Assembly (NCBI RefSeq): GCF_000003815.2
Contig: NC_049987.1
Coordinates: forward strand, 9,195,100 to 9,259,099
Direction: 5' to 3'
DNA length: 64,000 nt
Source of the DNA: Branchiostoma floridae
Taxonomy: Eukaryota > Chordata > Leptocardii > Amphioxiformes > Branchiostomatidae
A program made the translations under genes and the position numbers. Positions 6,801 to 58,458 of the stretch are shown here, in pieces. Position 1 is the first letter of the stretch, and every line of letters starts with the position of its first letter. The notes beneath the pieces are model-generated. The model ran no database searches. It saw nothing but the letters and a program-made list of their open reading frames with translations, and was not told the origin of the DNA.

Positions 6801-9800
6801 TAACATGTGATTACTGCTCATCTAATACAGACCAATCTTCTAGACCAATCTCTGCAAATCTAAAAAAACTCTCTGCAAGCTAACCTTGCTGCTGCAAGGT
6901 TGATAAATAGCCTGCTTGTAGACTGAAGAGGGCAAATTCCTTCAACCCAGAACTAAAAACCTTTTAAAGTCTTTCCTGACATGACTGCTGCCAATAAAAC
7001 TTCCTTGTAGCCTCCTCAACAATGCAATCACTACACAACTGCACAAAACAGCAAAATTGTGCTTTCTTCTCAAGTGGTCTGATAGATTCACCTGTCGTTT
7101 CCCCCACAGACCCTGTGACATCCCCATGCCTTTGGGTAGGCACAACCCTGGGGTCCGTGCTAGTCATCGTGTTGAACCTTCCACCCCAGGGGGACCAGCG
7201 CCTGACCCAGCCAGTTATCGTTTCCCCCAGTGGTAAGTACTTGCCATGTTCCATAACCACTGCTTGGTCACTTTTGGTGCACATGTATGTTATGTTTGGA
7301 TACCGGTGGCACATTGCTTAAGAAAAGGGGAGAAAGCACCACTGTCACATGATGCATTGCTACTATCTTAAGTGCTATAAATTGTCAGTTTCTGTCAAAG
7401 GTTTTAATGATTGAATGACAAGCCAAAACATTTGTATGGATAGCATAAATGCCAGTGTGTCTTTATATTTAGAGACTTATGATTGAAAACCTGAAACAAT
7501 GATAATTATGTACACTACTGAGAAGTTTAGCATATAAGTGGAATGGAAAAAAAGTATCAGAAATGACCTGAATGGAGAAAATGACAATAGAAAGGGAATA
7601 TCTTTTTGCAGTGTTGAAATTTCTATGACTCATGAGTGATGTAAAATATCCATTTGTCAGCACATGTGGTGAAAGGTTATGGCAGGATTACCATAATTTG
7701 CCAGAGGATGGGAAGATGTTAGAACTGACTGAAGAAATTTTACTTTAAGCAAAAAATGAAAAGTCTGTCCTTTTGAACATCTTCCAAAGACTTGTAACCA
7801 CACTTTTTTATATGCAAGCATATGTATTTTGAATTATGCAATTGTTTGAGCATTCTGTTGCTCAATAATAGTTTTGAAAAATGAGAAAAGACTTGGAAAT
7901 TGTTCGCAGCTTGTATGAATACCCATACCCTACACTGCTTTCAGCATTCCTGCAAACAAACCGTGGTACATGCATGATGCATGACTTATCACAATAAACT
8001 TGGTAGCCATTTCCTTGATTCCTGCATCACCTGAGCATGAGATCTTCTTTTGATCAGTCACAATTTCTTCACACTNNNNNNNNNNNNNNNNNNNNNNNNN
8101 NNNNNNNNNNNNNNNNNNNNNNNNNNNNNNNNNNNNNNNNNNNNNNNNNNNNNNNNNNNNNNNNNNNNNNNNNNNGTTTTTCAGGGAAGCAGGTTTGTGG
8201 TGCCTGGAAGATGATATGCATGGTCCTTTTCCCCTCCCCTTACCTCTCTCCCCCGCCGTGGTGGTTCTAGGTCCCATGGGCGCAGCAGCATTCGGCGACC
8301 TCCAGTCGCAAATGCTGATGTGCGTTGGTCACCCCTCAGGCACGATCCTGCGGCTCAAGGGCGCCATCCTCGCCATGTCGTTCCTGGACTGTAACGGCAT
8401 GACCATCCCACCCCTCTTCGCCAAGTGGGAGGATCCCAAGAAGAAGGACGAGAACAGGGAGACCAAGGATGGACAGTCCATGAATCAGAGAAGTGAGGGT
8501 TTCGTATCTGCTGGCACTTTTCTTCATTCCAAAGAACAAACATGGTTCTGTCACTAGTGTCAGTTCAAATTGCAATCAGAGTGTATGATTTTTAAATATT
8601 TGCTTTCACTTAAAAGACAGAACTTTTCAACTTTGATTCATGTCACTTTAAAGATAGACATGAAACGTTATAAATGTATAGCTATACCTCCTTAATACAT
8701 TCTTAGCATGGTGATCAGGACCTTGTCCACAGAGACTCTGATCACAATCTCAGTAGAATTGGCTGTTATGCCACATAGCAAGCTATATCCTGACACATAC
8801 ATTTACACAGAAGTATGAATGTGAATTGCCCTTAAAGGTATATTGCTTATGACTAATTATGTTTTAGATCTAAATGTATCCTTTCCCATACAATACTCTT
8901 ACTACATAAGAACTGAAAGCCTATGTCTTCTTGCCTTTCCCCAGGAGGATGGCAGCAGTTGCAGCATCTACACCGGCAGAAAGCCCCGTCCTCCCCCACA
9001 ACAGAGACCATCTCAGACAGACAATTTGTTGTCATATGTTCAGAGAAACAAGCCAAGGTAAGTTACATTGCTTACATCTAGTAATGACTTGACTATATCT
9101 GCTGATAACACAAACTGGTATGGAGTTATTCTTACAGATAGCTATAGAATAGTTACAGTAATATCTTACCCTAAAGAAATTGAAAACACAATGTTGTATT
9201 CTAACTCAGTCTACTTCTTCTTTGATCCGAATAGCACTGTGTAGCCATAGGTTATTTACTTGTAAGTGTTGTACAGCTAGTTTATGAGTGTGTATCACAT
9301 CACCATTTACACAATTACAGTTTTACAGTGTTCATGAAGGTGTATTACTAAGTTTTCCACTTTTGAAACATTCATGATTTGTTGTTTCTTTGTCTTTCAG
9401 GTTATTTCTCTCCCGTCCCAAACATGTGCATACAAGCTCAACATTACAGAAACGTCCTTTGTGTGCAAAGCTGATGTAGTTAGTATAGCAAGTGAGTATG
9501 TCTATACATAGTGCTTCATCACAATTAATGTTTTGGAGGCTATTTTGATTCATTTGAAAAGTTGAAGGGGCAATGAGGAAAATTATATCAACTTCCCCCT
9601 TTGCTTCTCTTCACTTCTGATTTGTTAGGTAAAATATTGCTGGCTCCTTCTACTAAGTTGTAGTTATCAATAAAACTTGAGGGTGCCAATTTTCAACTTT
9701 TTAATTTTTTCCTGTTTTTATATAAATGTACACATTTGTTGTAACTTGTATGTCTGTCTCTGTGCACCATACGCTGAAGTACTGCTTCCATGATGTCTGC

Positions 9801-12800
9801 AGATCGTCCAGATCTCTGCCATTTTTCTGACTTCATCATTGTGATTGCCCAGCGCTGTATCATTGTGATTTCACAGCGCTGTATACTGTGTTCCTTTGCC
9901 TCTCAACAGCCATGTATTGCCAATCATGTGTCTGTTTGTCTCTACATTACTTCTCTAAATGTTAGTCAATGAACCATTTCAAACTGTGCAACACATGTAG
10001 GTATGTCTGCATATATATGTAAAGGGATGCCACAAAGGGTGAAAAGAAAGACAGAACTTTTGGTTGTCTTTTGATGTACTGTTCTGATGGCACATGCTTT
10101 GAGATGTTGTACACCATTGTCATCAGTTCCTGACAGACATCTATGTCAGTACAGAGGTTTCTGTGTCTGGATTTTCCCTAATTCTCTCTCTCTTCTCTCA
10201 ATGACACTGACAACACTGTCCACGGTACTGAATCACAATTACACTGACAAAACTGTTTATGGCACTGCATGACAGTCACACTGACACTGTTCATGGTACT
10301 GAATGACTGTTGCACCGACAACACTGCCATCGGTACCGAATGACAATCACACTGACACTGTCCATGGTACCGAATGACAGTCACACTGACACTGTCCATG
10401 GTACTGAATGACAGTCACACTGACAACACTGCCCATGGTACTGAATGATATTTACACTGGCAACACAGTCTATGGTACGGAATGACATTTACACTGAAAA
10501 CACAGCCCATGGTACTGACTGACAGTCACACTGACACTGTCTTTGGTACTGAATGACTGTTGCACCGACAACACTGCCATCGGTACCGAATGACAATCAC
10601 ACTGACACTGTCCATGGTACCGAATGACAGTCACACTGACAGTGTCCATGGTACTGAATGACAGTCACACTGACAACACTGTCCATGGTACTGAATGACA
10701 GTCACACTGACAACACTGCCCATGGTACTGAATGATATTTACACTGGCAACACAGTCTATGGTACTGAATGACATTTACACTGAAAACACAGCCCATGGT
10801 ACTGACTGACAGTTGCACTGACAACACTGTCCTTGGTACCAAATGGCAGTCACACTGACACTGTCCATGGTACCGAATGACAGTCACACTGACACTGTCC
10901 ATGGTACTGAATGGCAGTCACACTGACACTGTCCATGGTACCGAATGACAGTCACACTGACACTGTCCATGGTACTGAATGGCAGTCACACTGACACTGT
11001 CCATGGTACTGAATGGCAGTCACACTGACACTGTCCATGGTACCGAATGACAATCACACTGACACTGTCCATGGTTCTGAAGGACATTTATGCTGACAGC
11101 ACTGGCAATTCCAATCACACTGACAGCACTGCCCATGGTACTGAATGACAAAAGCACTGACGCTCTCCTTGGTATTGAACGACAGTCGGACAGACAACAC
11201 TGTATTTGGATGTTAAAGTAAAACAAAAGCCTCCTCAGATGCACTGAAGTCAACTTGTGACAGATGCAGACTTACCCACACATGCACAATGCTGCACACA
11301 CTCGCACACATTCCCAAGACATCCGACAGTACCACATTTCTACCTTTATTCCCTTACTACTTACCTGTCTATCCCTCTCTGCTCCTCCAGAACATCAGAG
11401 CAAGGTTGGCCACTCTACTAATCTAACCAAGAAAAAGGTTAGAAATGGTTAGTATGATTCACACCAGCTGCTTCAGGTCTTCAACATTTCATCCTGCAGT
11501 TGCCAGCATTACTTTTTAACCTCCTGTTACAGTAGTTTTTGAGCTGTTGTTGGCTTGGTGTTGTCTTGTGAGTGGCCCTTGCAGTTTGTAGTTGTGGCAT
11601 GTTGTTCATCTTCTGTTTGCTTTTAGGTGCTATGGTTCCTGTCAGAGCGTACTTTGATATTAACGTATGATAACTTGAGCTGATTTTTTACTTCACAATC
11701 ACAATATGTCATGATAATTATAGTTCATGTCATGGCATTGCCATTGTTTATCCTACAAAGATTCACTATGTATCCCTTTGCAATGAAGTGAACTTTGGAA
11801 GAGTGTTCATATTCAAGTTGATTTAACCAGTGCAAGATATTCCCTGGAAGAAAACAGCAAGCATTGTATGCTTGTAGCGTGAGAAACACAGAAGTTTGGG
11901 GTGTCTGCCTTGTTGGTTTGAGGTGTGAATGACAATTGTATCTCACACACCATAGCTTATACCTATGGGAGGCTTGTGTGAATGAAATCTTGCACACTTG
12001 GTCCAGTCCATCAGTGCCTTGTCTCACACCACATGATTCCCCTGTGCATGTGGTGTACTACTTACAACACTTCCAACATCCTTCCTTCTCCTTCTCCCTC
12101 TCCTTCACTGTTAATCCTGGACCAGCTCCCGGGCTCTGCTGTGCCTTGGACAGGGTCACATCCAAAGTTAAAAAAGGTCAGATTGTTTCCTCTTGTCACT
12201 GACGAAAGACATGAGATGGTTGTCAGAAACGCCTGACCGTTTCCAAAATCATATCCAGTTGCTTGAGTAACTTCTCTTTGGCGTATCTTATTACCTGGAT
12301 GTCTAACCTTCATCAACGTATCAGATGTTTCCTCTTGGACTGAATATGAAATGAGCACAAAAAATTATTTTTCGCAGAAAATACAACTAGTAAATCTTCT
12401 AGAAGATGTTTGTGTTTGTGGGATGCCTTAAGGGCCCAGTGTAGCATAGGGAGCTCTTATTGTATTCACATACAGGTTCAACCTCTTGACGAATCTTTTC
12501 TCCTGCATTCACCAAGCTGACAATATTTCTCATTCAATATTTCTGACAATATTTCTTATCCTCAGATTAATACATACAAGACACATCTGCTCACCATGCT
12601 AGTAACTATGCTAACTAGCTTGATGTATTTCATGACATGGCTTTGCAAGGCTGTTGAGATGGCAAAACTGCATTAGAAAAAAATAATGCATTCTATATCA
12701 TTTTGTAACTGAACATTTCTAGTAATGTGCTTTGCTTGTTATGGTTCGTCATTCTTACCCATGAGCTATCAGTATTGCTTTAATCTCAGGTGTCTGTGGT

Positions 12801-15640: not shown

Positions 15641-18600
15641 GCACGGCCCTGGTTCTGACGGCCTTTTTTGAGGAAATGGAGATTTTCTGAGCGCCCACGT
15701 CTGGTGGGGAGGCTAGGGGAGGTACTCACGATTAACGTAGCACACTCGCAGCGGGGGCCTGCCTTTGTAGAGAGGAATGTTGAGGTGCTTTTTGCTGCGA
15801 CATGGGCAGAAATAAGATAACCCCTGCAGCAGATGATCCTCCCACGCACTGTTGCTTCAACTGATGCCTACCAACCTTGGGCAGGGACTCCTTGACTGTT
15901 CTTTTACACAATTGCCAGCAGGTAGAGCACTGCAACCATAGTGTAGTGAATTAGGGCATTTATATGCTGAACAGACAGGCAGCAGAGGAGGGCAAAACAG
16001 AAATAAGTAGCACCAGGTTTTACAGTCACTGATTCTTTCCATGTCATTCATTTTACTTCTTTCTCCAGGAATCTATAAAAAAGTCCTGATTCTAAACACT
16101 TTCTCATGGGGAAAGAGGCATCAACCTGAAACATTTTCTATATTCTTTGATAGATATTTGCAGAATAGTAACTGTAACTTCAGGGCCTGTTGTGTATGGC
16201 TCTGTCCTCTGCTGTACAAGGACTATGATGCAAACGGAAGAGAACAAAAGATTTTGTTCTTCTTTCTTGCATGGGGAACCAGCCTATTGCTGAACATTAT
16301 GAGGCTCATATGTTGGCAATATTGCTGCAAGGCTGCTCGAACATTAGAAAAAAATATGAGGGTTCACTATAAGGAAAGGTAATAGAATTCTCTGAGAAGC
16401 AATTTAAACTTGCAAACAGCTGACCTGGAGGAATTTTTATGCTGCCTTTGTTAAGTGCAATCAAAGTACGTAGGTGAGTCAACTAAGTGGAATTCTGAAA
16501 TGCAGTAAACTAGCACTGGTCGAAACAAAACCATGATTACGGAAGGGCAACATAAAACTAAGTTACTCAGTTTACCTCTGACTAATTTTGACTATAAATG
16601 CTGCCTACATGCATTTTCTTTGGATTATATTTTATTCCTTGTGAATTGGAATTATAAAACACCAAATGATAATCAGCAAACTGGCTTTTCTTTCAGTTGA
16701 AAGTCTATTATTATTGTTATGATTATTATTATGAATGAAGGACATAATGTTAGATAGGAATGAAGAGTAGCTATTGATTAAGAGTGTTGTAAAGAAATCT
16801 AAAGACAAATTTATGAGGATAAAGATATATTGTCTCAAAAAAAGATGTTTAATTTGCTTCCATTACATATGCTTTTTTTAAATGTAAGCTTTTATTCCAA
16901 TGAATTCTTCCAGCAGGAGCTTTTAAAATTTTCAGTGAAACTATTATGTGAAACTATTATTCCAGTGCTGACAATGTATTATTTGGCTTAGTGCAATATG
17001 GTCATTAGATTAGAGCTTTATGGTAAAGTAAGGATGGTCATACTAGTACTTACTGTAAAATTTGTGTGATATTCCTAAAATTTCTAGGGTGATAGTGGGA
17101 CAATCATATGGATGTGAGGCTGAGAAAATTATTGACTGGTCATTACTCAAGATTCCTGTTTTCATAAACAAGACAAAAGTTGTACCTTAGGTTCTTGATT
17201 CCTATCTTTTATACAGTAATTTAACAGGTTTTACTATTTCTTACTCCCGTACACAGTGCCCTGCATTTTGTTTAGAAAATGGGAATTTCAAATTAGACCA
17301 AAGCTGGGCGAAGAGCTGAACGCCTTCTGAAGCATGTTACTGGGGTAAAGGTTATTCATGAAAGCTCTACATAATATTCTGACCAACCATATTCAACCCT
17401 ATTCCATCATGCTAGATTTTGAAAAGTAGGTTTGTTAGGTTTGCAAAACACACAAGATCATTTTGAAAATTCTTATGCTATTGTATATGTACCATTTTCA
17501 TAAATAACAACACAACAATGCATATTTTATACAGAGGGTGATACAAAATGCAAGAAATTGTTATCTGGAAGATTTTTTTTTTCAAATAAGTTCTAAGTAG
17601 GTATCAAACTGCTACTTAATATGTAGCAATGGTATGGTTGTCTTTTAATGAGACCAACGGATAGTAGGTTAACTAGTCCAAGCTCAAGTATGAAGGTAAA
17701 TGTAGATGTATAGATATTTGTGTCAGATGTAACATAAATCTAGTCACCTAACAAAGTGTTGGGTTCCAACAATGTCAACTGGTACAACAACTACTGGTCC
17801 ATGGTGCTGGCATGTCAAGTTTGCACAGAATTTTTTCTTTGTGTCACTTGTTTTTGGCATTTTGAATTTGAAAAAAGAAGTGGAAGGGTTGTCGAAAAAA
17901 GGTTGAGGCCTTTGAAATGCAAGGTTTTCAAGAGGACATATTTTGAAGAAAAATATGTTCTGGCAATAGCTGCTCATTCTATTTAGTACATGCAAAAAGC
18001 CAGAACCTTTGGGTTGAAATCTTGTGTAGGCTTCATTGGCTGAATAGAAGAATAAAGGAATAAAGGGATGGATTTTCTTCCCATTTTCATTGTCAAAGTC
18101 ACCATAGGGCCGAAGATGTTGCTTGGACATATATCTTCCCCTTGGCATTTCAATGGCAAATTTGGAGACCCAAATAGCTGAAACAGTGTAGTACTTTTAT
18201 GTACAGATAGACTGTCATAGACTGATCATCAGTTGCTGCTGTATTATGGATGTAAGAGTTGTATTTACTTTTAAACCATAGACTTACATGTAATGATGTA
18301 TTTCCATTGAAATCTCAAAAGATTTATTATGTTGCCCCAATGGAATGTCTTTGTCTCAAAACTATACACGGCAGTCAAAATGTCCATGTTGTGTGGTCAG
18401 TGTATGGAAGTAAAATCATAAGAGAGTCCCTTGGCTTAGAGGGTGATGAAAAAAGCAAGAATTCCTTTCAATATTTGTGACTTCTCAATTAAGCATTCCT
18501 CATTTTCAACATTTTACAGGATGTAGTCAAATATCTGTTCCATTTTTTTGGATGATTGTGCAGTATGTTTCTACAAATTTGACAGGGTTGGACTTCCTTG

Positions 18601-24102: not shown

Positions 24103-27100
24103 GACTGGTGTACACAGTGACGTAACTGACATGCGCACTGCGAAGCTTGGCCGCCATGTTGGATTCAGCAGAGTAGACGACATTTTGGCACCAACTTTAC
24201 TTCTCCGAAAACTTTCTCAAGTTTTACACCACTTTCTTCTGCATTACATTGAACGCCCGAGGTTCCCATTCTACAGCAATAATGGAGTCGTATGTATCTA
24301 GTATTTTAGAACGATTTGCTGTAGTACAAGTGTTATATTATGGTTTCAAATGTATTTGTTTTGGCGATAATTTTTGGGAGAGTCCAAAATTTTTCCACGT
24401 CAACCTGTATTTAGAGTAACAGGTGTTTGCACCTGAACAGGTGGCATTTTACTTTTTGTCTGACTTTTTGCGTTATATGATCATGATTTATTTTAAAATG
24501 TTAAAATGTAGCTATTACATATGGATGATTATAGTCATTATGTTGTTGTTGTAATAAGCCATTTGCTGATTTTCGAAGAATCAACATGTTCGTTATCTTT
24601 CCTGCAGACAGATTTTGAGTGAAAATTTGACATGTAAATTGTAAATGATAGTATTTTGTACTGTTTATTGTGTTTTAGCCATGGTGTTTTAGCTTCTACT
24701 CTTTCATCAGACGAACTTATATTTCTTGAAATTACGTAATATACTGATGCAAAATCCTATGGTACATAAATGTATATATTAAACACCCTACTGTATTTAA
24801 GATATGAGTGAACATATCGCTTATGAAAGTGAAAGGTAACGTTACATATTATATATTATGAATCATGTTTCCCCAGATCCGTACAGATGCGGCTGTACAC
24901 CCTGAGTAAGCGTCAGTTCGTGCTGGTGTTCGCGGGATTCTTCATGTGCTTCGCCGTGTCTGTGTTCATAGGAGTGGCAGGTGGATAAACACTCCTGTTT
25001 ACCTATACGTAAAGTCAACATCATAATCACACACAACCATCTGACCTTGCATGGGGTCTGCATGCTTTTTTTCATAAAGCAGGAGGGTTGACTTCAACAT
25101 AATGCAGTAGGGTCGTCTGTGAATGTGCCATAAATGCGTAATGATGATGAGTGGGGGGAATTTTGCCTAATTGGTAACCACTGACACCAACTGTAACACG
25201 CCACTCTTGTTGCAAGTCTAAACATTGTGTCCTTTGGAAAGGCACTTTACATGACTTTCCTCACACTTTTAAAAATGAGTGACTTTGGTTGGGGGGTGGT
25301 AACTAAGGCACGATCTAGACACGGTTTTTCCCGATATCGGCGAGCCAACAACTTCTCGCTGACAGCTTTTTTTCAGCGTCTAGATGGAACTGCAATATCG
25401 CCATAAAGATATCGGGAAAATTTCTCCCGAAAGGTCCGGACCATTCGTACGATAGCTTAGCAGGGGTCCCCGATAGCTTTGCAGGGGTCCCCGACAGCTT
25501 CCGCGCGCGTGTAGATGTGTCCCAACTTCGGGAGAGCTCATTAGCATACAATTAGGGTTCATTAGGCTATATAGCTGTTTATGACTGCAAGCGCCACGGG
25601 TGTCCCGCGGCCAACGTTCCAGATCCCTCCCGACACATCCACAGATATCGGTAAAAACTGTGTATAGATTAGGCCTGAGAGGTGCAGAAGGACAGGGATG
25701 GGTTCTGCCTTCCAATACTGTGCCCTAGACATTGACAGCTCACTGTCCCTTCAGCCTCAAAAAGACTATTTGGCTATACTATCAATGCACAATTACCTAC
25801 CTTTTTTTACCAACTCACCCCACCTTAATACATTCTGTAGCACACCAAGAAATTGAAGTGTAAAAGTCAAAATATTTTACAATTTTGTATTAAAGGTATC
25901 CATCAACGATTGTGCCAGGAAATCTTTTTCTTCCTTTAAATAAAAGTATGTATTGTATATAAGGTGGGTGCCAAAGCTGCAATTATTCAGAATGTTAGAC
26001 TCTCAATTCAGACTTTGCAATTAATGATTTCAACATATTTGTGACATTTGTTCAATATCCAGTGTAACTGTTAGTTCTACATACAACACAAAAGTGAGTC
26101 GCACAAAGTCCCCTAGTGTTTGGTAGCCTACCGAAAACACTCCAGCTCAGACAAAATGGCTGTCAACTCAAGTGGCAATGGAAACTCAAAGTGTAGAAGA
26201 CTTCAATTCTCCTGATACAGGAAAGCCACATTCATATGCCATATATATTACTGTGTATTGTAAAGGTGGGGTCACACCTGCGTATTTAAGTCTGTATGAG
26301 GCGTGCATGAGAGTATTTGCCTCCACCAGGCTCCACAGGCCGTTCTAAAAATAATAGAAATTGGACAAACATAAACAGGTAACATGTCAGACAAGTTAGC
26401 TGGGTCGCAAACCATAATTCTCGGTCAGCTAACTCATCTGGCATGTTATGTATCTATATTTGTCCAATTCGTACTATTTTTCCCGCGACCCGCGGAGCCT
26501 GGTAGAGACTAAGAGCGTCATACGCACCTCAAACGGACTTGAATATATACGCATGTGTGACCCCACCTTAACAAGGTGGGTTCAACTTGTGGTGTAGAAA
26601 AATGACCAAAAACAGTAACCTTGGTTTTAACATTCAGGTTCTATGATATGGACCCTTTAGATTTAGAAATTGCCCTGAAGATTACTTTCCCTTTTATTGC
26701 AGGTCCACCAATTGTGACCGAGCACGATGTCAACGCCTCCGCACTTCAGTCACCAAAGGTGGAGAACTTAGCTGTAAGTAATATAAGGTTCTAACACTTC
26801 TAACACACATTGTCCTATGCCCTTGCATATACAGTGCAGTATACACTAATACAGGCTTTTTATATGACGTCATCTGCGCCATGTTGGATTACAGCGTATG
26901 GCTGTAAAGCACAGGAAGATGCCATTGCTTCATCCAACATGGTGGCCCGGGAATTCAAATCATAGTTATTATATGATGTCATGGAAAGCCTGTATATATT
27001 ATGTTATTATGGTATGGACCAGCAGACTCAGGGAAAATGTGGCAAGAGTCTTTTGTAATTGTATGTACATGTTCAGGTGAACAACACAAGTAATTGGTTG

Positions 27101-30100
27101 CTATGTTGTAAAGTGCTGGTGCACTCAACATCCAGAGCCTGTTGACCTGCACATGTGCACACTTATCTCAAAATCATGCATGCTTAGTCATTGCAGTAGG
27201 GAAAAGCAACTCTTGAAGTGTTTTCCCTTTGTTGTTTTCAGACTGGACCTTTCCAGTTGCGAACACCAACCCTATCCACATTTAACCAACAACTGTGGCT
27301 GACATCCAAGATATTCATACGAAATCCCAAAGGTAAATAACAAGCATTGCATGGTTGGCACAAGTGATGTTGAATAAGAAATCTTATACAAGCCCCTAAA
27401 TTGTGAGCCGATTTCAGTTGTAAATATTCCTTTGCATGTAAATCTTTTTTTATATATCACTACTGATTTTTTCTTACCTAACATGCAATGTTGTCTCAAT
27501 GTAATGGAACTGCCTGAGAATAAATTGACTTGAAATGCATTATACTGCTAAACAACTTTCTATGTACATATAAGTGCTAAATAACTGATTCAGCTTTATA
27601 AGACTTTACTACAGTTGGTACATAAACTATTGCAGAAATGAAGACATCAGAACTTTGTGGGAAAGTTTAAATGTATGTTTTACTTGGCTCCCGGGAGGGG
27701 GTTCACCTCCAACATAGGGATTGTTTTTGGTTTTGTTTCTGTTTTCGCACCTATGACTCAAGTTCCTTTTGATAGATTTGTATGAATTTTGGCATACGGA
27801 TAGTTATTGGGGTCCCAAAGAAACATGGCAATTTTGGGTCCCCTTAGCAGCATTTACAGGTGCTGCAACATTACTAGAGGACACCCCCTCCCTGAAAGTA
27901 GTGTGGTATAGTCCATGAACAGGTGGTCATCTGCCCCTGATGGATGACCCCTAATTATGGGAGGGAGATGGCTGGGATTGGGAAGGGATGGATCACTAAC
28001 ACTAGTGTTATGGGTGGGGCTGTGGCATTAAGAAACTCACAGAAACTTTCTATCATATAGGTATGAGACCTTCCATTTTCTGTTTGACCTGTTTACAGGT
28101 GACACAATCAAGTCCAAGTTCACCATGAGTGTGGTAGTGGAGGGGCAGGTGGCTGACTCTTCAGTCCTGATCACAGGGGAGAGAACACACAACCACTCCA
28201 GGACACTACACTGTAACAAGGAGGTAAGGGAGGCATAGTACTCTTTTGTTATAGTGAACTTCAGTTCATATGGAATATGAGTATACATGAATGATAAGTA
28301 GCAAAATATACTGTTGTGAGACGTAGCATAATATACTGTTTGATAAGCATACAACACTGCAAATGTGTACTGAACATCCAAGTAAATGCTTTTTCCTCTG
28401 ATTCTCAAGTAATTCCACATTGTGATAGTGTCAAGAAAAAAAAAACCCTCTGTTATCTATCTTTTGCCTTCTAGCTCATATTCCAAAAAGGAGTTACTCA
28501 AGCAACTGGATATGATTTTTGAAATGGTCAGACATTTCAGACAGCCATCCTGCGTCTTTCGTCAGTGACACTAAGATTGTACCCAGCCACTATATGCTGT
28601 ATGCCTTTTGTTTCAGACATGTAATGACCTAGTGATCCTACACCTGGGATACCTGGACTTCACCACCTACCTGGTCAGGGTCATGTTCTTTGGGATATCA
28701 GACAAGTACCCAGTCACTGAAGTGGGATTCTCGGTGGGTATCTTTATCTTTATCTGTATGGCCAGTATAGCCACCCTTCAGCGTAACACACGTAAAGCAT
28801 GTGGCACAGCAACAGCTGGTTACACCCATGTACTATACTGGATGATCTGTCATGCCTAACCTTTGCACATATAGCTGTAACTGTAAGCGTAACGGTGGTT
28901 TCAAGATATATACCAGTAGTGAGAATGCCCCTTGTGTAGATGGTAATTTGGTAGCAACAAGTTCTACTCTATGATAGCTCAAGGAGAATCCAAGTTAACG
29001 TGCAATACAAGTATAGAAGTTTTTCATCTTTTCAATTTTGATAAGAAAGCATTTCCTCTTTTTTAGATGTTATGCACATAGTATTGAGATGAGAAGAAGT
29101 AAAAAATGTGAAAATATGTTTTACAGTTCAAGATGTACAACCCAACCTTCACTCAACTGGAGATCTGGTTCAGATTTGTGTTCCTCGTGCTGACGTTCAT
29201 GGTCACGGTAAGTATTCACCTGTTTCAACCTTCCTATTTATTGTTATCGTTTTCTTCCTTTCCACAGATACTTAACTGTGTATGGCACTTGGTCTGTTTA
29301 TGACGCTGTCACTGAGGGCTGGCAGATAATGATGAAGATGACACATGCTATCAATACATTATAATTTTTATATACATACTGGGTATTTGAAGGTAGCAGA
29401 ACACAGATTTTGGCCTATGGGGATTTCTATAGTACTATATCCTGCCTGACCTCCGGGCGTGCTCCGAAGAGAGTGTAAGGTATGGGCAAAAAAGTCCGGA
29501 GCAAAACGCCCGGATTGTCGTAAACGGCGGGATAAGGCACACACCAGTATAGATACACTCTAATACCGCATACCTCCATCCTTTCCCATTCTTCTATCCT
29601 TCCCCAAACCTCAATTCTTTCCCAAACCTCAAACTTATCCCAAACCTCTATCCTTTGCAAAACCTCTATCCTATCCCAAACCTATATCCAAACCCTTCTT
29701 CCAACCCAAACCTCTACTCGAACCTAGAAAAAACACCCTTTAGCTAAGTCAAGTACTAATTTCGTCCCAAGGCTGACCCTGAGATGACAATTCTCAAACA
29801 AAAACAACTCACTTTTACTCTTACTGTAACGAAAAAGGAAAATTGCAAACTAAGAAATGACCGTCTCTCTCAATAGCCGACATTCCAAACAATAAATACA
29901 CGGCAAGCAGACTAGAAACATGCAATTTTAAAAATAAAGATTAACCCAGGGTCAGCCCTAGGACGAGCACCAGCCCCCGGTTGGTGGGCCTACCGAAGTA
30001 GAAGGGTAATAATAGGAAACCCCGGTGCCCGCCGTCGAACATCCCCCGAAAAAGGAACTAATAAACATTACTTACTACTTACTAGGTCTAAAAACTTCTG

Positions 30101-33100
30101 AACAATGCTAACCATGGAAAAACATACAGAAATAAGCCGCCTCGTAAACTAGCAACAATCGGTAAATAAACCTATTCACAGTAGATGCGTTCCACACAAC
30201 CGATAAAACGTCTGCATCCGCAAAACATGGATATCGTACCCCAAAAGAGATCAAACAATTAAAAACAACCGTGGGTATACTGTCCCCACAACAGGCAAAA
30301 TGAATCAAGTGGATATCTTCCACACAAAAGAAGATAAAACACTAAATCCTCCACACACACGAATAAAATTGACAAATGGATTTCCCTCTACATACCCAAT
30401 CATTTACGTGCCATAGGAAACCCACCACAAAAACGATAAAATATACTATCCTCCACATAAACCAGTTCAATTAGTACAGGCTTTCCCTAAGACCTCACCT
30501 GCCAAATTGGAATAAAGCGCACAACTATAAACCACACAAAAATGCCATTGTTTAAACTAATCATTCGCCACGTGGTCGTCAGAGGAATCAAATTATGCGC
30601 CACCTGCGCCATGTTGGATTACAGCGTACAGCTGCAAACCACACCAAAATGTAACTGCTAAAATTAATGACCCACCACATGGTCGTCGGAGGATAAAAAA
30701 CATAATACCCTCCAAAAACTAGAGATCACAGCTAGTGGTTGCCCACCACATAAGGCGAGAGAACATTATTACTATCAGACTTCTTCCACGGAAACGATAG
30801 ACAATTTATTAGTGGAAGCCTCCACAAAACAATAAAACATTTACTTGTGGTTACCTACCACATAAGGCGAGAGAACATTACTAGCAGACTTCTTCCGCGG
30901 AAACGATAGACAATTTATTAGTGGAAAGCCTCCACAAAACAATAAATCATTTACTTGTGGTTACCCACCACATAAAGCGATAGAACATTATTAGCGGACT
31001 CCTTCCGCGGAAACGATAGACAATTTATTAGTGGAAAGCCTCCACAAAACAATAAATCATTTACTTGTGGTTACCCACCACATAAGGCGAGAGAAATTTT
31101 ACTAGCGGACTCCTTCCGCGGAAACGAAAGACAATTTATTAGTGGAAAGCCTCCACAAAACAATAAATCATTTACTTGTGGTTACCCACCACATAAGGCG
31201 AGAGAACATTACTAGCGGACTAGTCCTTCCGCGGAAACGAAAGACAATTTATTAGTGGAAAGCCTCCACAAAACAATAAATCATTTACTTGTGGTTACCC
31301 ACCACATAAGGCGAGAGTACATTATTAGCGGACTCCTTCCGGGGAAACAATAAACAAATTATTAAAGGATAGCCTCCACAAAACAATAAATCATTTATTA
31401 GTGGCTACCCACCACATAAAACGAGAGAACATACTAGCAGAATCCTTCCGCGGAAATAAAAAACAAGTTCTAGTGGATAGCTTCCACAAAACAAAAAACA
31501 ATTTACTAGTGGTTACCCTCCACAATAAAACGTTAAACAATACTAGTGGAATCCAAAATCGAAAAAGCAGCACTGTGGACATGCTCCCCAAAAAAATAAT
31601 ACTAATAGGAACAACAAATTTAAAGGAACCTAATCAAGTCTCACCTGTGAACCCCAAGAAGAATGCTCTAAGTCGGCCAAAACGTTCAAGTAACTCCGCC
31701 GCCAGGCTGCCACGTTAAACTGCCCGTCCTGGGCTCTAAACTCGGGTTCTCCGACCCGACCAACCGTAGTCTGCAAACCCCAGGACGATAAGTAAGAGCA
31801 AAGAGCTATTAAATCTCCTTGGTAAGAGTAAACCATCCCCCAAACCTGACTACAACACTGGGCTCTCAAAATCAGCATCTGTCGCGCTGGGAAGACCTGG
31901 TCTAAAAACAAAGTCGAGAGCACGTGAAGAAGACGAGAAACGTGGTAGCGAAGCTTCCCCTACGCTGCGGTGAGGCTCGTCCGCTCCGAATGACAAAATG
32001 CAAGATTTCTCAGTGTAATAAGTACCCCTGTGTCAGGTGAGTATGTCCAGGTGTAATTGAGGTCACGTGGCGCGCCCCCAACCTGTTTACGCTTCTTAAG
32101 GAATGCGCAAACAGGCTGGGAACGCTAACTTGACTCAATTAGAATAGTTGAGGACCACAAGGTGACTGACATCAACGCTGATAAAACCATAGTAGGATGC
32201 AGTTTTCAAGCAAGACAAACTGATATGTTGAGGTCGAGGATATAACTGAAAACCCAAAAAAGTTACAGTTTTGAAATTTTTTAAACACTCTTTTAAAAAG
32301 ATCTCCATATGTAGGGGAAGGGCTTCAAATGCAGCAACCCCTCCCTGTACAAATTACTCTGCCATAGGCATTACAAAGAGAGTAACAACCATATCCATAT
32401 GCTCATGTACTGACAGAAGTTTTACTTGTGTTCCAGTGTGTCTTTGCTCACTCCTTGAGGAGGTTCTCCATACGTGACTGGTCCATCGAACAAAAGTAAG
32501 CATCTGGTTATTAGATAAGGTGACAACAAACTAAAAGTTGTCAAGATAACTTTTGCTTTCCTGTGTGCTAGATGCTAGTCATTACTGTTCCCTTTTTCAT
32601 TGTATTGAATAAAAGTTGGCTTTGTCAAACTAACTCAGAGCATCTATATGTTATTCATGATGTCTCTTATTGTCTAGTCCAGAATTTCGTATTTCAGAAG
32701 CAAGCAAAAACGTGTTTGTACTTTCCTGTAAATTAAACTTATGTTCGCATTGATGTTAAGTTTACAGTAAATTAGCCACCGCAAAAACCGCAAATATAAA
32801 ACCATCGCGAACGTTTCTGCATTTACAGTTGTAAAATGTAGCACTGTGTGCCCAAAATGTTTTTGTTTTTTTTGTCCAGATGGATGTCGATCCTGCTGCC
32901 GCTGCTCCTGCTGTACAACGATCCGATCTTCCCGCTCACGTTCCTGGTGAACAGCTGGGTCCCGGGGATGTTCGACGCCGTGTTCCAGGCCTCCTTCCTC
33001 TGCGCACTGCTGCTCTTCTGGCTCTGCGCTTATCATGGCATCAGACAGGTGGCGCTTTTCACACACTTTACAATCATGATGCTGTTCACTCACTCACTCA

Positions 33101-36100
33101 CTATCCATTGTTTAGTTATACTGCTGCTGGGATCCCTGACCCAGAGGTAGGCAGCAGTCGGCTTAAGTTTTCATACCGCGCTTCCATGCGGCTCTGTCCA
33201 GTGGGTCGACCCCTGTTAGACTGCACACCCCGATGTCCCTCCCAACACACTCCATCCAGTGTTTATCTCTACCACAACCCCTGTGACCTGACAATTTCAG
33301 TTTGGTGATGGTATTATGCAGTCACTTGATCTTTCTACGTGTCCAAACCACCTGAAATGTTGTGCTTTATTTCCCAAGTAGCATGTTGTTTATTCCATTT
33401 CAGATATTGAAGGTGGCACATCAAGAATGCTTGTCCCGTTTTATCATCCATGAAATGTTCTTTTGCCTCTGAAAGTTTCCACCATTCCATTTTAAGAAAT
33501 AGGAAACACTTGTGATAGAGTACGTAGGAAAGGACAACCTCAAACCAACTGCAGACACTTACGCCACATCTTCAGAAAAGACGCTTGAGTCGCATATTCC
33601 TTGTTTGGAACTTTATTCGAGCCAACACGCAAACATGTTTCGCCATGTGGCTTCTTCAGTGCTTTGGAAATACTTGTATTGTTCTAGAAAAGCCAACACA
33701 TCTATAGTCAACCAGCTACGTTAACCTAATGAGGTCAAAATTTCATGCATATTTTTCATGTTCTCACAGTACGAGCGGAGATTCATGACGTTCTATGTGC
33801 CCAAAGTTATGATCGTTGGGCTCCTGTGGATCTCTGCAGTTACACTGGCCTCCTGGCAGGAGTAAGTAGTACTGCAGGCCCTTTTCTACTAAAACATGCA
33901 ATTTGGATAATGTGGGTAGAAACACTTGTGTTCAGAAGCATTCTGTCCGTCCCAACTTCCAGTTGTCTAGTTTTCCTTAAACCTGTCCATTTTGGGTACA
34001 GGTTATGAGGTGAATTTTAGCAGCCAAGAAACTAGAGTACACGTATTCCTTTCCTTTCTTTCCCTCCCAGGTACAATGAACTCCAAGATCCAACATATCA
34101 GTACAAGGTGGACACAGTCAACTTCACAGTAAGTCTGAATCTGACTTTCGAGCACTAGATTGTGACGATAACAATATAAAGGGATCAGATGTAAAACATT
34201 GTCATGTTAATTGCTTATATCAATCAATTTATTGACTTTAGGGTGCATAGTCTTGTGGTTTAAGTTACCTTGCCACATGACCAAGAAGTCGTGAGAATGA
34301 ATTCCAGCTATATTGTCACTCACCCAACATGCACACTACCAGTAAGGGTTGCAGTCCTTTTAGGATGAAACATTTAACTATGGCCCATTCTTCTTTGTAC
34401 CTATCAAAAAGAGCCACGGGACTTTCCCTGGTACAATAAACCTGTACATACATTTGTAGCTTCTGTCTTCCCTATCACAATCAGGGAAGGTGTAGCTCAA
34501 CTGTTCTTTGACTTTGCTTTAACTTAACTGGTGCAAGCTCACTATCAGTATTACTTTCATGGTGGTGGTTGAAAAAATGATGTTATTGTGTCAAATACTA
34601 ATTATATTAATTTCAACTTAGGGGATGCAGATTTTCTTCTTCGTCATCGGTTCAGTGTACCTACTGTACTTGTTGTACCTGATCATCCGTGCCTTCAGTG
34701 AGCTGCGTGCCATGCCATACTTCGGTAAAAACTATAACCTATCACTAGATACTGCTGTGAGTTATTGCTTGGCATCAGTCTTAGCCAATATAGGGAAACA
34801 ATATTATATAAGATACACAAATGTAAGTGAAGCAGTGTTCTGTTGTTTTCATTGTCATTAGTGGTGTAGATAGCATATGAAATACTACTTAATGCATAGT
34901 TAACTGAATTCTTGTTGTCTATTTCAGACCTGAGACTGAAGTTCCTGACAGCTTTGATGTTTGTTGTGCTGGCCATCAGGTATTTTCTTTAACACTGTGC
35001 TGTTGCAATGACCTTAAGGGCATGTTTCTGGGCATGAAATGTACAAAAGAAGCAACTTGGAAAATGCAAAAACAAAAGGGAAGGGTATATTGTAACACAC
35101 ACCGATGTAGTTTAGACATCCAGGTAATAAGATATGGCAAAAAGCAGTTAGTCATTACAAGCAACTAGATATGATTTTGGAAATGGTCAGACATTTCAGA
35201 TAGCATCCACTACATTGTGACACAGATTGATTTCATTGTTCTGCAATGTCTTTTCACCAACTGTTTAGTGTCCTTTAGCTAATTGTAAAATGTTTCTCAT
35301 TTAGCATTGCCATCACTGTGATGCGGTTTGGGACAGGTGTGCTTCAGGACAACTTTGTTGCTGACTTGGCCACACACTACAAGAACTATATCCTTTCTGC
35401 CGGCCTTGTTGGCTCAAATCACATGTGTTGTATATGTGGTAGACTTATCCTCGGCCAACTGACATACTCTGCACCACAATCATCCCTCAATAAGTTAGTT
35501 AAAGTTAAAGTTGCCCGTACATCTGGACCAGATGCGTAGGGGTGGCGCCCATCTCCATTTCTGTAGCCCTTGGGCCACACATGTGCAAGCCACTACAGCA
35601 GGGGGCTGGTCCGCTGGTATTGATGTGTGTTTAACTTCCATACTCTTCCTCATTAGTGCTGAGTGCTAAGCAGAGAAAGCAGCATGTACCATTTTTAAAG
35701 TCTTTGGTATGACTCGGCCAGGGATCGAACTCACGACCTACCGAACGCAAGGCGAACACTCTACCCACTCGGCCATCCCTCAATGAGACAGAGATGAATT
35801 TAGACCTTTCCTTCAGTACTAGCGCAAGCCTATCCCCATCTTTATATTGTGTATTAGGACTGTCCTCAGGACTCATCCCTCTGTCCTGGGGTGAAAATGT
35901 GCAAGTTGGGCAGACAAACATCCCGCACCATTTGGCCAAAGCTCTGAGCTTCATGACATGAAATTGATGAAAAGATATTTTCATAAGCTTGAATTGACAG
36001 TTACAACAACAGTTAACAACAACAAGCAGTGAGCAGGACAGAAAAAAGTTGCAGCTGGAGACAGCCCTCTTGTGTATGTTAAAAAATGTGGTGAATGTAG

Positions 36101-37350
36101 CTTGCCCTTTGTTTCCATTAGGACAACCAATTTCCAAGAGAATTCCTTAACAGATCTTACCTGCAGAGTTCCTGTCATTCTACGGCCTGCTCAACTTCTA
36201 CCTGTACACCATGGCATATGTGTACTCTCCTTCCAAAAATGCACTTCATGGTAAGAAGCCCAGAACATACTAATGCCAGAAAATCAAGAACAATATCAAT
36301 TTTTATGTCATACCTGTGCTGCAATGATGTTTGATACAGGTGTTCTGGACTGGGTTATAAGTTGCCATATCGCTTCCATCCACTAAATCAAATGCACTTT
36401 ATGTGTAATGAGTGTGGCGCAGTTGAAAATTCAAATACCATATTCAGACTTTGGAATTGCTGTTGTTACAATTTTTGTTTGAGGACATCAAATTTTCTCC
36501 ACTTCTGGTGCATTTCATATTGAAATGTGTGCTTTTCTTTTGGGTGGGCATGACATTAATATAATACAACACGGTGTATTGCGCATCACCTTCTGTCCCA
36601 GCCCTCCCCCGGGTCAGATCGCCCTGCAACAGCACATGCTAGCACCTCAGGTGATTCACCATGTTGTATTCTATATGTGTAAACTTTTTCATTGGTTATA
36701 CACATGTATATGACATTTATCCACCTTGGAAAATTTGGTTCCAAGTGAAAGCTATCATTTTTATATAACACATACCTTACAGAATCCCACTTCAAAGACA
36801 ACCCTGCATTCTCCATGTTGAACGACTCAGAAGATGAAGTCATATATGGGTAAGTTCCACAACTTTTTTATTAGAGTAACAAACATTTCCCATTTCAAAC
36901 TATTTGTCTGCTTACATTGTGTGTAGGGGTGGGTACAGGTACAGAAAATTCAGGTCCAGGTCCAGAAGATCAGGTCCTGGTACGGACCTGAACCTGGACC
37001 TGATTGTCTGTGAAAATGGGCAACATACAAAACAATGGTCCATCTCGCTTCTAAGGATTCTGTTAAGTGTCTTTAAAATCCTATCTTCATGTAAATAACA
37101 CTAACTATGACCAAGTTTGACTGTAGAAACTTTTGGACCGGCCCAATAAGAAAAAAACAGTTTTGTACCGGTACACTGTCAGTACCCACCCCTAATTGTG
37201 CATGTACATTGTAAGATTTGAGAACTGCAGTTAACGTTCCTACAATTTCTTACAATGTCATTTCTTACAAGGAGTGACAATGAGAGGAATGAGGAGAGAA
37301 CTCGCCTGACCAAACCAGTGCCAGCGTACCAAGACAGCGACTCAGACTAG
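23241..37350 (+). CDS. TMEM181: Transmembrane protein 181, complete, 17 coding exons
   Basis: TMEM181 is a GOLD-domain seven-helix membrane protein of the Wntless/GPR107/TMEM87 superfamily; its cellular role is poorly defined. Exons: 23241-23377, 24877-24980, 26703-26773, 27242-27332, 28099-28223, 28617-28733, 29127-29207, 32437-32495, 32880-33048, 33770-33861, 34071-34128, 34622-34724, 34928-34979, 35305-35387, 36161-36250, 36783-36849, 37272-37350 (stop TAG). Every phase agrees, giving 525 residues. Exon 2 encodes MRLYTLSKR and the first hydrophobic helix. Exons 3-6 encode the luminal domain, including STFNQQLWLT. Exons 7-15 encode seven hydrophobic helices with WSIEQKW, LLYNDPIFP, FWLCAYHGIR and YSPSKNAL. 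The tail is acidic (NDSEDEVIYG, ending DSDSD). Intron 14 is AT-AC, the rest GT-AG. Exon 1 was chosen because DRCYRSVQMRLY matches the N-terminus of the long vertebrate form. Confidence 0.95.
24110..24289 (+). promoter_or_regulatory. TMEM181: Possible alternative TMEM181 promoter and first exon
   Basis: Just outside the inverted repeat are a CRE-like TGACGTAA (near 24118) and a YY1-like GCCGCCATGTTGG (near 24151). An ATG at 24282 is followed by GAGTC|GTATGT, a good donor after 24289. That short exon ends in phase 2, exactly the phase needed for the exon at 24877, and would give MESSVQMRLY. It is an inference from splice phase and motif content; no transcript evidence was available. Confidence 0.45.
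25180..25290 (+). mobile_element. SINE fragment (family C)
   Basis: The segment GGAAAGGCACTTTACATGAC followed by TTTCCTCAC matches the body of the SINE at 55411-55905 (GGAAAGGCACTATGCACCAA). Only part of the body remains; the promoter boxes are absent or eroded. Confidence 0.6.
25307..25677. mobile_element. Non-autonomous transposon with terminal inverted repeats
   Basis: The left end, around GATCTAGACACGGTTTTTCC and CGATATC, pairs with the right end GATATCGGTAAAAACTGTGT followed by ATAGATTAGGC. Inside are two adjacent 21 bp copies beginning GATAGCTT and ending AGGGGTCCCC (near 25451-25492). There is no transposase ORF. Confidence 0.65.
26264..26568. mobile_element. MITE with TAA target-site duplication (Harbinger-like)
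   Basis: The left end AGGTGGGGTCACACCTGCG and right end ATGTGTGACCCCACCT are inverted repeats. Each is flanked by TAA (26261-26263 and 26569-26571), the 3 bp duplication typical of PIF/Harbinger. A second dyad inside (ACCAGGCTCC near 26327 and GGAGCCTGGTAGAGACTA near 26495) shares its sequence with the palindrome at 43834-44037. Confidence 0.75.
26850..26994. mobile_element. Short MITE, possible TA target site
   Basis: The ends TACAGGCTTTTTATATGACG and ATGATGTCATGGAAAGCCTG followed by TA are inverted repeats. The motif CCATGTTGGAT occurs near each inner end in opposite orientation. A fragment related to the left part (GCGCCATGTTGGATTACAGC) occurs at about 30605 within the satellite intron. 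Located in TMEM181 intron 3. Confidence 0.7.
28490..28580 (+). repeat. Interspersed repeat family A, copy 2
   Basis: Contains CAAGCAACTGGATATGATTT, GGTCAGACATTTCAGACAGC and CTTTCGTCAGTGACA in the same order as the complement of 12178-12330. It ends about 40 bp before TMEM181 exon 6. Confidence 0.75.
29575..29740. repeat. Short degenerate minisatellite (CCCAAACCTCNATCCTTT)
   Basis: About eight imperfect copies of an 18-20 bp unit such as TCCCAAACCTCTATCCTTTG lie in tandem at the start of the A/C-rich block. Confidence 0.75.
30100..31560. repeat. Satellite with 36-37 bp subunit and 110 bp higher-order repeat
   Basis: The marker TTCCGCGGAAACGA, or a close variant, starts near 30781, 30890, 31000, 31111, 31224, 31334 and 31443, a period of 109-113 bp. 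Each period contains three related subunits of about 36 bp of the form CCACANAAACGATAAA followed by TTATTAGTGG. The left part (30100-30750) shows the same 36 bp rhythm but much more divergence. Confidence 0.85.
31645..31960 (-). CDS. Unidentified minus-strand open frame ending at a splice donor (possible exon)
   Basis: An open frame of about 105 codons runs on the minus strand after an upstream stop and ends at CACAG|GTGAG (donor after 31645). It contains RQMLILRAQCCSQVW, YSYQGDLIALCSYLSSWG and FNVAAWRRSYLNVLADLEH. The only ATGs are internal, so it would be an internal exon, a truncated gene or a retroelement remnant. No family was recognised. It lies opposite to TMEM181, beside the satellite. 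Confidence 0.3.
32053..32143. repeat. Imperfect 90 bp palindrome
   Basis: The arms TAATTGAGGTCA...CCTGTTTACGC and GCGCAAACAGG...TTGACTCAATTA are inverted around TTCTTAAGGAA. The innermost 34 bp (about 32083-32116) pair almost perfectly. It may be one end of the element that carries the satellite. Confidence 0.7.
35155..35225 (+). repeat. Interspersed repeat family A, copy 3 (partial)
   Basis: Contains CAAGCAACTAGATATGATTT and GGTCAGACATTTCAGA as in the copies at 28490 and 12178, then diverges. Located in TMEM181 intron 13. Confidence 0.65.
35388..36160 (+). other. TMEM181: U12-type AT-AC intron of TMEM181
   Basis: The intron starts ATATCCTTTC, the minor-spliceosome AT-AC donor. It carries TTCCTTAAC at 36143-36151, a perfect U12 branch-site consensus, and ends TTAC at 36160, ten bases after the branch A. 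Joining AAGAACT to CTGCAGAG gives KNSAEFLSFY, as in vertebrate TMEM181. Using the nearby CAG as the acceptor instead would create a TAG stop at the junction, so the AC end is required. Confidence 0.93.
35492..35773 (-). mobile_element. tRNA-derived SINE inside the U12 intron
   Basis: Read on the minus strand, the head is GCCGAGTGGGTAGAGTGTTC (A box) followed by GGTCGTGAGTTCGATCCC (B box). A body follows (CATACCAAAGACTTTAAAAA then TGG), and the tail is AACTTTAACTTTAAC-like. It is flanked by an 11 bp direct repeat, CATCCCTCAAT, at 35481-35491 and 35774-35784, consistent with target-primed insertion. Confidence 0.88.
36305..36700 (-). mobile_element. Interspersed repeat family B, copy 2
   Basis: The complement matches 15196-15472 at both ends and in the middle (TAGAATACAAC, GGGTGATG/GGTGATGCG, GTCCAGAACACCTGTATCAA, GGTATGACATAAA). 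About 100 bp near 36420-36520 has no counterpart and may be a later insertion or divergence. Located in TMEM181 intron 15. Confidence 0.7.
36924..37194. mobile_element. hAT-like MITE in the last TMEM181 intron
   Basis: Terminal inverted repeats TAGGGGTGGGTAC and GTACCCACCCCTA are flanked by ATTGTGTG (36916-36923) and ATTGTGCA (37195-37202), an 8 bp target-site duplication with two changes. The interior is made of GGTCC/GGACC dyads. These are the marks of a non-autonomous hAT element. Confidence 0.82.
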
Positions 37351-41247: not shown

Positions 41248-42752
41248 TCGTACACTCAACTAAAATAATCCATCACGGTAGTACAAGACCATTGTTTATT
41301 TTCGTCGATAGACCTAACTTATGGCATGGCGTCATTGTTCTGCTGTATACACCTCTTGTCGAGTCAAGTACATCCAGATGAGCTCAAGAATCCTCTCGTT
41401 GCAAGGACTGTCTTGTCAAATCTTGCCATCAAACGTTGCTTTCTGGTTCTTCGAGTGAACCACTACGTACTCTCGTAGGACAACTGAACGGCGGTAAACG
41501 TGTTAACATCTAGTGCATTACTTAGTCCCAATCTTCTAACGGAAAAGTCGGGCGCGAACACCATGTCATACGGACCTGTTTCCCTTCCTCCGGGAGTAAA
41601 ACCTACGCTTGTGGTCTTCATCGCTGCCGGCATTGTCTTGGCTAATACTTTTGTCGTCCTGACGATTGTGAAGGCCAACCGCACGCCGACCCTGAGAGGC
41701 TTCGCAAGGTTCCTGGCCATACTCCTGGTGTGTGGAAACACCATATCAGTTTTGTTAGTCGTGTCCCTGGCCTTCAGCGTGACTGACCAATGGCAGTACA
41801 GGGACACATTCTGTCGGGTGAGTCTGTCTTTAATACTACCACCTGTTACCTATGCCGTGTCCTCCTATTTGTGATTTTAAGGGCCGGGTGGGGCGCATTG
41901 GAAGGCATAACTCGTCACAATATCTATGTAAAGCTTGTTTGGCATTTTTGCGTAACAATATGTGCATACGTACTTCCAAAACATGTAACGTTACCCCCCC
42001 TTTCTATTTGATCTCAGTTTTGCCAGATTCCCAGGTGACTGGGAACCATGACTGAGAACCATGACTGGGAACCAAAGACTTCAGTGTCCAGTGCGACACA
42101 TGCCCTAAAGTTTGATTAACTAAGAAAAGGGTGTTTAAGAATTTTAAACATCCTTGGTCTATTACAAGACAAACGACGTCAAGTGATGTACACAGTAGTA
42201 TCACTTTTCGTCTCACATCTACTGAAAAGACTCCACATATAGAGGCTGTTTCTAAATTGTATATTCGGTAATGTGAATGGCATCTGCTGTTTTTTGTGTG
42301 ACATTTAATCTAATAACCATCTTAGATATTTGACAGCGCTTCAAGGGCGAGCCTGACATATGTGCGGTTTGTAAGAATTCTAGGACTTTCCCCTGTTTTT
42401 CCCATGTCCAGGCATGAGTTTTCATTTGGAAGAAAACCCCTGATAAGGATACCGAGGGATAATCAACCTCTGATGGAAAGATCCTCAGTTCGACAGTGAA
42501 GAAAAAGAAATATCATGAACAGGAACATGCAATTCTTACAGGGTTTAGTCCTCCTCTGATCGCCTGTAGTCAAAGGCCACCGTTCCCATGACGATGATTG
42601 TGTTGATTCCTTGTTGATTCTTTTGTTTTTCGTTGAACTATCACACTTACAGCAAACAATCCTGGACTCTTTCGCCTGTTATGTGGCTACCCTGGCCATG
42701 ATGTATGTCGTCACCCACCCAACAAGGTTATCATCTTAACCTGAAAGTTCAT

Positions 42753-43180: not shown

Positions 43181-43664
43181 ATACGGGTTATCATCTCCTT
43201 AGAAAACTTGCTTCAGCTTTAGATCATATATATCTCAGCAACTGTGTTTCAGTGGAGTCTCGGAGGACTGCCCAAAATTGTGTCAGGAAATTGTACCAAC
43301 TTTGGAAAATTGTGCCAATATTCCCTCACGGTTGCCCCGACGTGTTTTCATATGAAGCCAAGAGGAAAAGGATACTGGAAATCTATGCTGTGTTGCGGTT
43401 GAATAAAAAAAACAATGTGATTCTGAACGCACCAATGAGAGATTTGAAATTGTAAAAGGATTTTTACGTTTTTATTAAACATTTATGAATATTTATGATA
43501 GCCCCTTTTGTTAAGGATCTTCATATTTGGCGCAACATGTAAATTAACCCATATGTGAGCTTTTTGCGAATTGCATTTTTTTTTCCACATTTAAAATGTC
43601 GCAGTCGCAAGTCCTGCCCCTATCTGAGCCGATTCGCGATGCCTGACGCAATTGAGTGCAGTCC

Positions 43665-43764
43665 NNNNNNNNNNNNNNNNNNNNNNNNNNNNNNNNNNNN
43701 NNNNNNNNNNNNNNNNNNNNNNNNNNNNNNNNNNNNNNNNNNNNNNNNNNNNNNNNNNNNNNNN
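43665..43764. other. Assembly gap (100 N)
   Basis: Exactly 100 N, a placeholder for unknown length, between the GPCR fragments and a palindrome. The downstream GPCR exons could lie here. Confidence 0.99.
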
Positions 43765-57100: not shown

Positions 57101-58458
57101 ATTTTGCCAGCCAGTAGGTACCCAAAGTATGAGTAATGAGGCTGTTTAACGTGGTCGAGGCACCTCCTCGAGCACGGGACCCCCGTTTTACGTCCCTCCC
57201 GGAAGACGATTTCGTGGAAAACTTCGTGAGGCTACAGCAATCCGGACGTCCTTGGTTGGTCCCCCATCCAAGCACTATCCGGACCGCGCGTTGCTTAACT
57301 TCCGAGATCGAGGGATCGGGTGTACCAACGTGCCATGCGGCCGTAGCTTAAGGTACACAGCTCTAACTGTCCCTCCCCTTACCTTCACTCCCAACAACTG
57401 GTCATCATCGCGAGACTTGACGTATCTGCGGTGGTTCTGGAAGAAGTTGGTCAGGCCGTAGTACATGTAGACACTCCCCGTGATGTCTGAGCTGATGCTG
57501 AAGTCCACCTGGCACACGCAGGTTCCCGGGCTGCTCACGTTCTGTACCACCTCCGAGCACGTCTGGTTAGCGCCGGCCGGCTTACAATTGGTGTAATCCA
57601 CCTACATGGGTGAGACAGGCAAATTGGTTGGTCATTTCCTACATATGGTCTATCAACAGAACAAGTCAACACATGGCTATTGCAGATAACTGCAGTTATA
57701 TGCCGATGAGGTAATGCATAATGACATAGACACATTTTTTGGTACTTTATGTCATCAATGGCCATTTTGTACCAGCAATGTGTTGAAAATCATGTACAAT
57801 GATTGTGCCTTGAATATTGCCCGTGTAGGGACCAACTGTAACTGCATTAAGTTTGAATGTTGTACAGTTAGATGTTAAAAGTTGTGAGGTTCATATAACA
57901 TAATAAAATATGATAAAAGCTCTTAAAACTAAGGGTTTGCCTCCGCATTTTGTTCAAAAATAAGTTAATAAGACTCCTGGTTGGCCATTTGTATATTGTA
58001 TAATTATTACCTAAATCAATCAATCAATTCAGTCCAATGCCAGTGCAAATGAACATGTATACCAAACAAAATGATATTCTTCTAACTTTTAGATTAAGAT
58101 GACTCAAAATCCAAGGTAAACAATAAAATTCTGCTTCCATATGGTGACCAAAATCAATGCACTGAATGAATCCTATATCAAAACATCTAACAACATAAGA
58201 AAACATGTCAGCAACGTTAAGCAAAATACTACATCCATTTTGTGTAATACTACCAATAAATCAACTCATTCAGAAGCTGCACCTTACTGTACATAGAGAA
58301 AAGGGTATATCTGAAATTGGCTCTCTATACATGGCCATAGTGAAGAGTATCTTAATCTGGACCCAAATTTTCGATGTAAGATAATCACTTGCTACATACA
58401 CTATAAGGTATACCAATAAAATATCATAAATTTTCAGAAACTTTCAAATCACTTTTTG

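Follow-up and report, generated by a model that had tools for sequence, protein, structure and literature searches.

We analysed a 64,000-nucleotide window of the Branchiostoma floridae genome (the whole stretch, numbered from its first letter), in which a gene on the forward strand spans positions 24887-36849. Its exons were assembled by eye, using open frames and splice signals, into a model of 15 exons and 450 codons from an assumed start codon, interrupted by 14 introns. The 450-residue product matches the Pfam families WLS-like_TM (PF06664; 281.8 bits, profile positions 1-247 of 247) and TMEM181_GOLD (PF21885; 121.5 bits, profile positions 1-111 of 111), and because of this pairing of a GOLD domain with a WLS-like transmembrane domain the predicted gene is identified as TMEM181, the name already given to it in the first-pass annotation. 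We take TMEM87 and TMEM181 to form one group of GOLD-domain seven-transmembrane proteins. No exon carrying a stop codon was found for the gene, and a short-motif search for a further exon came back empty as well. When the genome (513,431,437 bases in 431 contigs) was searched with the C-terminal 131 residues, all four matches were exons of this locus, so at that sensitivity there is no second copy, haplotype copy, paralogue or retrocopy with the spliced junction. A tandem array at 30732-31524, with about seven copies of a 110-bp unit and a longer period of 334 bp, lies inside intron 6 (3229 bp).

Thirteen of the 14 introns could be modelled as GT-AG at boundaries that fit the frame, and the remaining one, intron 13 (35388-36160, forward strand, 773 bp), begins with AT and ends with AC. 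Exon 13 (35305-35387) ends in ...CACTACAAGAACT in phase 1, and exon 14 (36161-36250) starts with CTGCAGAGTTCC (S-A-E-F-L-S-F-Y); joining ...TACAAGAACT to CTGCAGAGTTCCTG gives Y-K-N-S-A-E-F-L-S-F-Y. The first-pass annotation had described this intron as opening with a U12-type 5' splice site, carrying a branch site ten bases before its end and closing at an AC that restores a conserved KNSAEFLSFY, where the adjacent CAG would give a stop, and the sequence details of this description were borne out. The 5' splice site ATATCCTTT at 35388-35396 is an exact match to the consensus RTATCCTT(T), the branch site TTCCTTAAC at 36143-36151 is exact too, and joining 35387 to 36161, just past the AC 3' splice site at 36159-36160, keeps the frame in phase 1; use of the CAG at 36164-36166 would turn the split codon into TAG. 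Counted from 36150, the penultimate A of the branch motif, the distance to the last intron base is 10, or 11 with the first A taken as the branch point, and the motif itself ends nine bases ahead of that last base. Branch sites are judged here by a near-exact TTCCTTAAC within 10-20 nt of the 3' splice site, and intron 13 has one. The distance of 10 sits at the short edge of the range of 10-20, with an optimum of 11-13, given in PMC8199999, which counts somewhat against a U12-type reading, whereas phase 1 agrees with the under-representation of phase 0 among minor introns described in PMC10639083.

The two signals set intron 13 apart from its neighbors, as it has no mismatch at donor positions +2 to +9 and none at the branch site, with the other 13 modelled introns showing three to seven donor mismatches and two to four at the best 9-mer in their last 45 nt. 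Taken singly in the 64-kb window, RTATCCTTT was seen four times, with 1.32 expected and a count of four attained in 2 of 100 shuffles, and TTCCTTRAC twice, with 1.37 expected and a count of two attained in 41 of 100. From base frequencies, the chance of both exact signals falling in their proper places is about 6e-10 on a strict count and about 2e-8 (2.4e-8) on a lenient one that allows R at +1, TTCCTTRAC and 14 introns. The single 9-mers are thus not striking in 64 kb; both of them, exact and rightly placed in one intron, are beyond chance. A possible second U12 intron in the window, running from GTATCCTTT at 8876 to TTCCTTGAC at 18594, was rejected, as by eye no exon lies there.

A genome search for the minor-spliceosome snRNAs returned one match above the Rfam cut-off for each, namely U6atac (133.6 bits), U12 (132.1 bits), U11 (94.1 bits) and U4atac (81.1 bits). 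U6atac contains AAAGGA, complementary to donor positions +4 to +9, and the U12 stretch GTAAGGAA can pair with TTCCTT(A)AC, leaving one A bulged. The start of U11, AAAAAGGG, can pair with the CCTTT at donor +5 to +9 through a five-base AAAGG match found by eye; the longer AAGGA, looked for in U11 by script, is not there. Such a pairing arrangement is known for the minor spliceosome, in which the order of the snRNA steps is established. From the sequence signals, the fit of the protein and these snRNA genes, we infer that intron 13 is removed by the minor spliceosome. U11, and then U6atac, would pair with ATATCCTTT; U12 would pair with TTCCTTAAC, with the branch A near 36150 bulged out; and ...AACT would be joined by the spliceosome in phase 1 to CTGCAG..., beyond the AC that lies ten bases downstream, so that the K-N-S-A-E-F of the transmembrane domain is restored.

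Two rival readings would involve the major spliceosome. The exons might be spliced through a GT-AG or GC-AG pair close by, the AT-AC signals being coincidental, and such pairs are at hand: among GT-AG, GC-AG and AT-AC junctions with donors at 35325-35639, acceptors at 36000-36234 and an open frame, we enumerated 62, including 15 GT-AG and 15 GC-AG. Ten of the 62 were scored against the Pfam WLS-like_TM profile, comprising the proposed AT-AC, four of the 15 GT-AG, three of the 15 GC-AG and two of the other 31 AT-AC junctions, and the proposed junction was the best of these ten at 89.0 bits, with the nine alternatives at 70.1-81.4. The four GT-AG and three GC-AG junctions each fall 7.6-15.1 bits lower, 11 and 12 of their respective kinds being unscored, and coincidence would require both U12 signals to stand exact at these sites, at odds of about 2e-8; we therefore hold ordinary GT-AG or GC-AG splicing here to be extremely improbable. 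The other reading, in which the major spliceosome removes the AT-AC intron itself, has known precedents in introns such as those of sodium-channel genes (PMC2831892). The cases described there have G at +5, however, and intron 13 has C at that position together with a full U12 5' splice site and branch site, which makes this reading extremely improbable as well. Removal by the minor spliceosome thus stays the preferred reading of the junction.

Within intron 13 lies a SINE in antisense orientation to the gene (35492-35773, reverse strand), with its tail at the low coordinate and a tRNA-like head at the high one. It is flanked by two copies of a target-site duplication, CATCCCTCAAT, at 35481-35491 and 35774-35784 on the forward strand, which a near-repeat search recovered as a 14-base repeat (13 of 14 matching) 293 bp apart, with 11 exact bases bracketing 282 bp. 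The part that matches other copies runs from about 35497 to 35776, so up to three bases of the duplication are ambiguous. The first-pass annotation had reported a 282 bp SINE with an 11 bp target-site duplication that left the splicing signals unharmed, and this description stands: the duplication is exact, it frames an insert of 282 bp with relatives elsewhere in the genome, and the insert sits mid-intron, touching no splice signal. The insert plus one duplication amounts to 293 bp, and the intron without the SINE measures 480 bp.

The element shows the features of the SINE class: it is repeated, its copies share their ends, and it has tail repeats and a target-site duplication. It resembles tRNA-derived SINEs in its AACTTT-like tail repeats and target-site duplications and, perhaps, in its head, where words resembling A and B boxes were picked out by eye; neither ARAGORN nor Rfam at its gathering cut-off called a tRNA or RNA family on the element. 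A genome query yielded 3119 first-look candidates, 40 of which were scored to give 43 matches, one being the window copy itself, and 40 of these 43 showed 93-100% identity across most of the query's length. Inside the 64-kb window we found no other copy at E 1e-5. Compared with the majority of 29 relatives, the window SINE differs at eight of 279 columns and by one gap, and at two of the eight columns its base is carried by 5 and 9 of the 29 copies. Most copies (25 of 29) start, by eye, about nine bases earlier than ATGGCC with a ACCGGTGCA-like stretch; these head bases are missing from two copies (L018 and L027) and from the window SINE, and are masked in two of the 29. A simple word search, run without a shuffled control, gave exact flanking repeats of 10-14 bases for 16 of the 29 other copies, repeats of 7-9 bases that may be chance for six, and none for seven, two of which have N-masked heads. 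The family thus appears abundant and young, though its age is given as roughly young because the 29 aligned copies were picked for similarity.

Could the SINE alter the use of the intron, for instance through more retention or a cryptic exon? If intron 13 were retained with the SINE, translation would meet the stop TAG at 35537-35539, inside the element, and in the empty-site form the frame of exon 13 runs on through 92 intron codons without a stop (window positions 35388-35961, forward strand). In a single post-hoc test, 0.6% of 20,000 introns generated from a Markov model had an open length that great, which speaks for such an effect. Against it, the 93-residue stretch has no Pfam family match at E 0.1, and a retained stretch would cut the transmembrane domain. 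The open frame into the SINE-less intron is probably a product of chance, and we judge an influence of the SINE on splicing very unlikely. There is an equally slim prospect that the SINE is still polymorphic and that alleles with and without it differ in how often the minor intron is retained, which would change the C-terminus of TMEM181 or its dose; if true, this would offer a natural test of how insertions affect slow U12 splicing.

We compared the site of intron 13 with its homologous position in WLS-like genes. In one such gene with a readable exon there (L053, C15:20405157-20417936), the exon reads ...HTVEINSAFLTGVYGMWNVYVF... uninterrupted, and a homologous minor intron is absent. A single BLASTP comparison with the TMEM181 piece gave a gap-free alignment (10 of 26 residues identical, beginning with NSA; E 1e-5) in which the NSA of the WLS-like protein faces the intron-split NSA. 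When these two pieces were aligned globally, NSA was matched again, with gaps before and after. The uninterrupted exon with its aligned NSA indicates that intron 13 is not common to that paralogue, and gain in TMEM181 or loss in WLS is equally allowed. A second WLS-like gene on C15, at 18.3 Mb, has no match past profile position 220.

Several further features were detected in the window. Its sole Rfam match at the gathering cut-off was a 5S rRNA at 57229-57348 on the reverse strand (56.1 bits, full model length). At 10204-11086 a 34-bp unit is repeated in tandem about 25 times, with longer periods of 250 and 287 bp. An open frame at 41488-41874 on the forward strand resembles by eye the part of a 7TM receptor that holds its first membrane spans, with one Pfam match far below the cut-off, and a run of about 100 N lies at approximately 43663-43764.

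Introns of this kind are well represented in animals. The AT-AC share of human minor introns is put at about 22% (PMC6717393) or 26% (PMC10639083), and U12DB ratios of GT-AG to AT-AC range between 3:1 and 1:1 (PMC2831892). The U12-type AT-AC introns that PMC2831892 describes for human and fruit fly, in SLC9A7/Nhe3, STX6, PHB2 and KCMF1, have AT-AC ends with the consensus ATATCCTT at the 5' splice site and TCCTTAAC at the branch site; intron 13 matches these, and no difference in signals is apparent against that text. Mouse Tmem87b, like TMEM181, encodes a membrane protein and contains a minor intron (PMC6717393). Our paper searches, which left aside database tables and supplements, found no report of a minor intron in TMEM181 and no literature joining the minor spliceosome, AT-AC introns and amphioxus. 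By word search, Branchiostoma is unmentioned in PMC10639083, PMC2831892, PMC6865273 and PMC2846911, and TMEM181 in PMC10639083 and PMC2846911.

We hold it very nearly certain that positions 35388-36160 constitute a minor-spliceosome (U12-type) AT-AC intron of TMEM181 that later received an antisense SINE mid-intron with its signals intact. On this reading, a 480-bp intron grew to 773 bp when a tRNA-like member of the young, abundant family retroposed into its middle, and the signals stayed untouched. An AT-AC intron with a mid-intron SINE in a lancelet gene is ordinary and expected, both being of a well-known kind, since roughly one human minor intron in four is AT-AC and a SINE in that place touches no signal. 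The insertion is likewise unsurprising because minor-intron lengths follow major-intron lengths, their medians being correlated across species (PMC10639083). The locus is a clean example of U12 AT-AC signals that are readable from genomic DNA alone in a cephalochordate, alongside four minor snRNA genes, and it indicates that the space between the signals of a U12 intron is open to retroposon insertion. If the minor intron of TMEM181 is common to other deuterostomes, it would be an old one, missing from the homologous site of the WLS paralogue.
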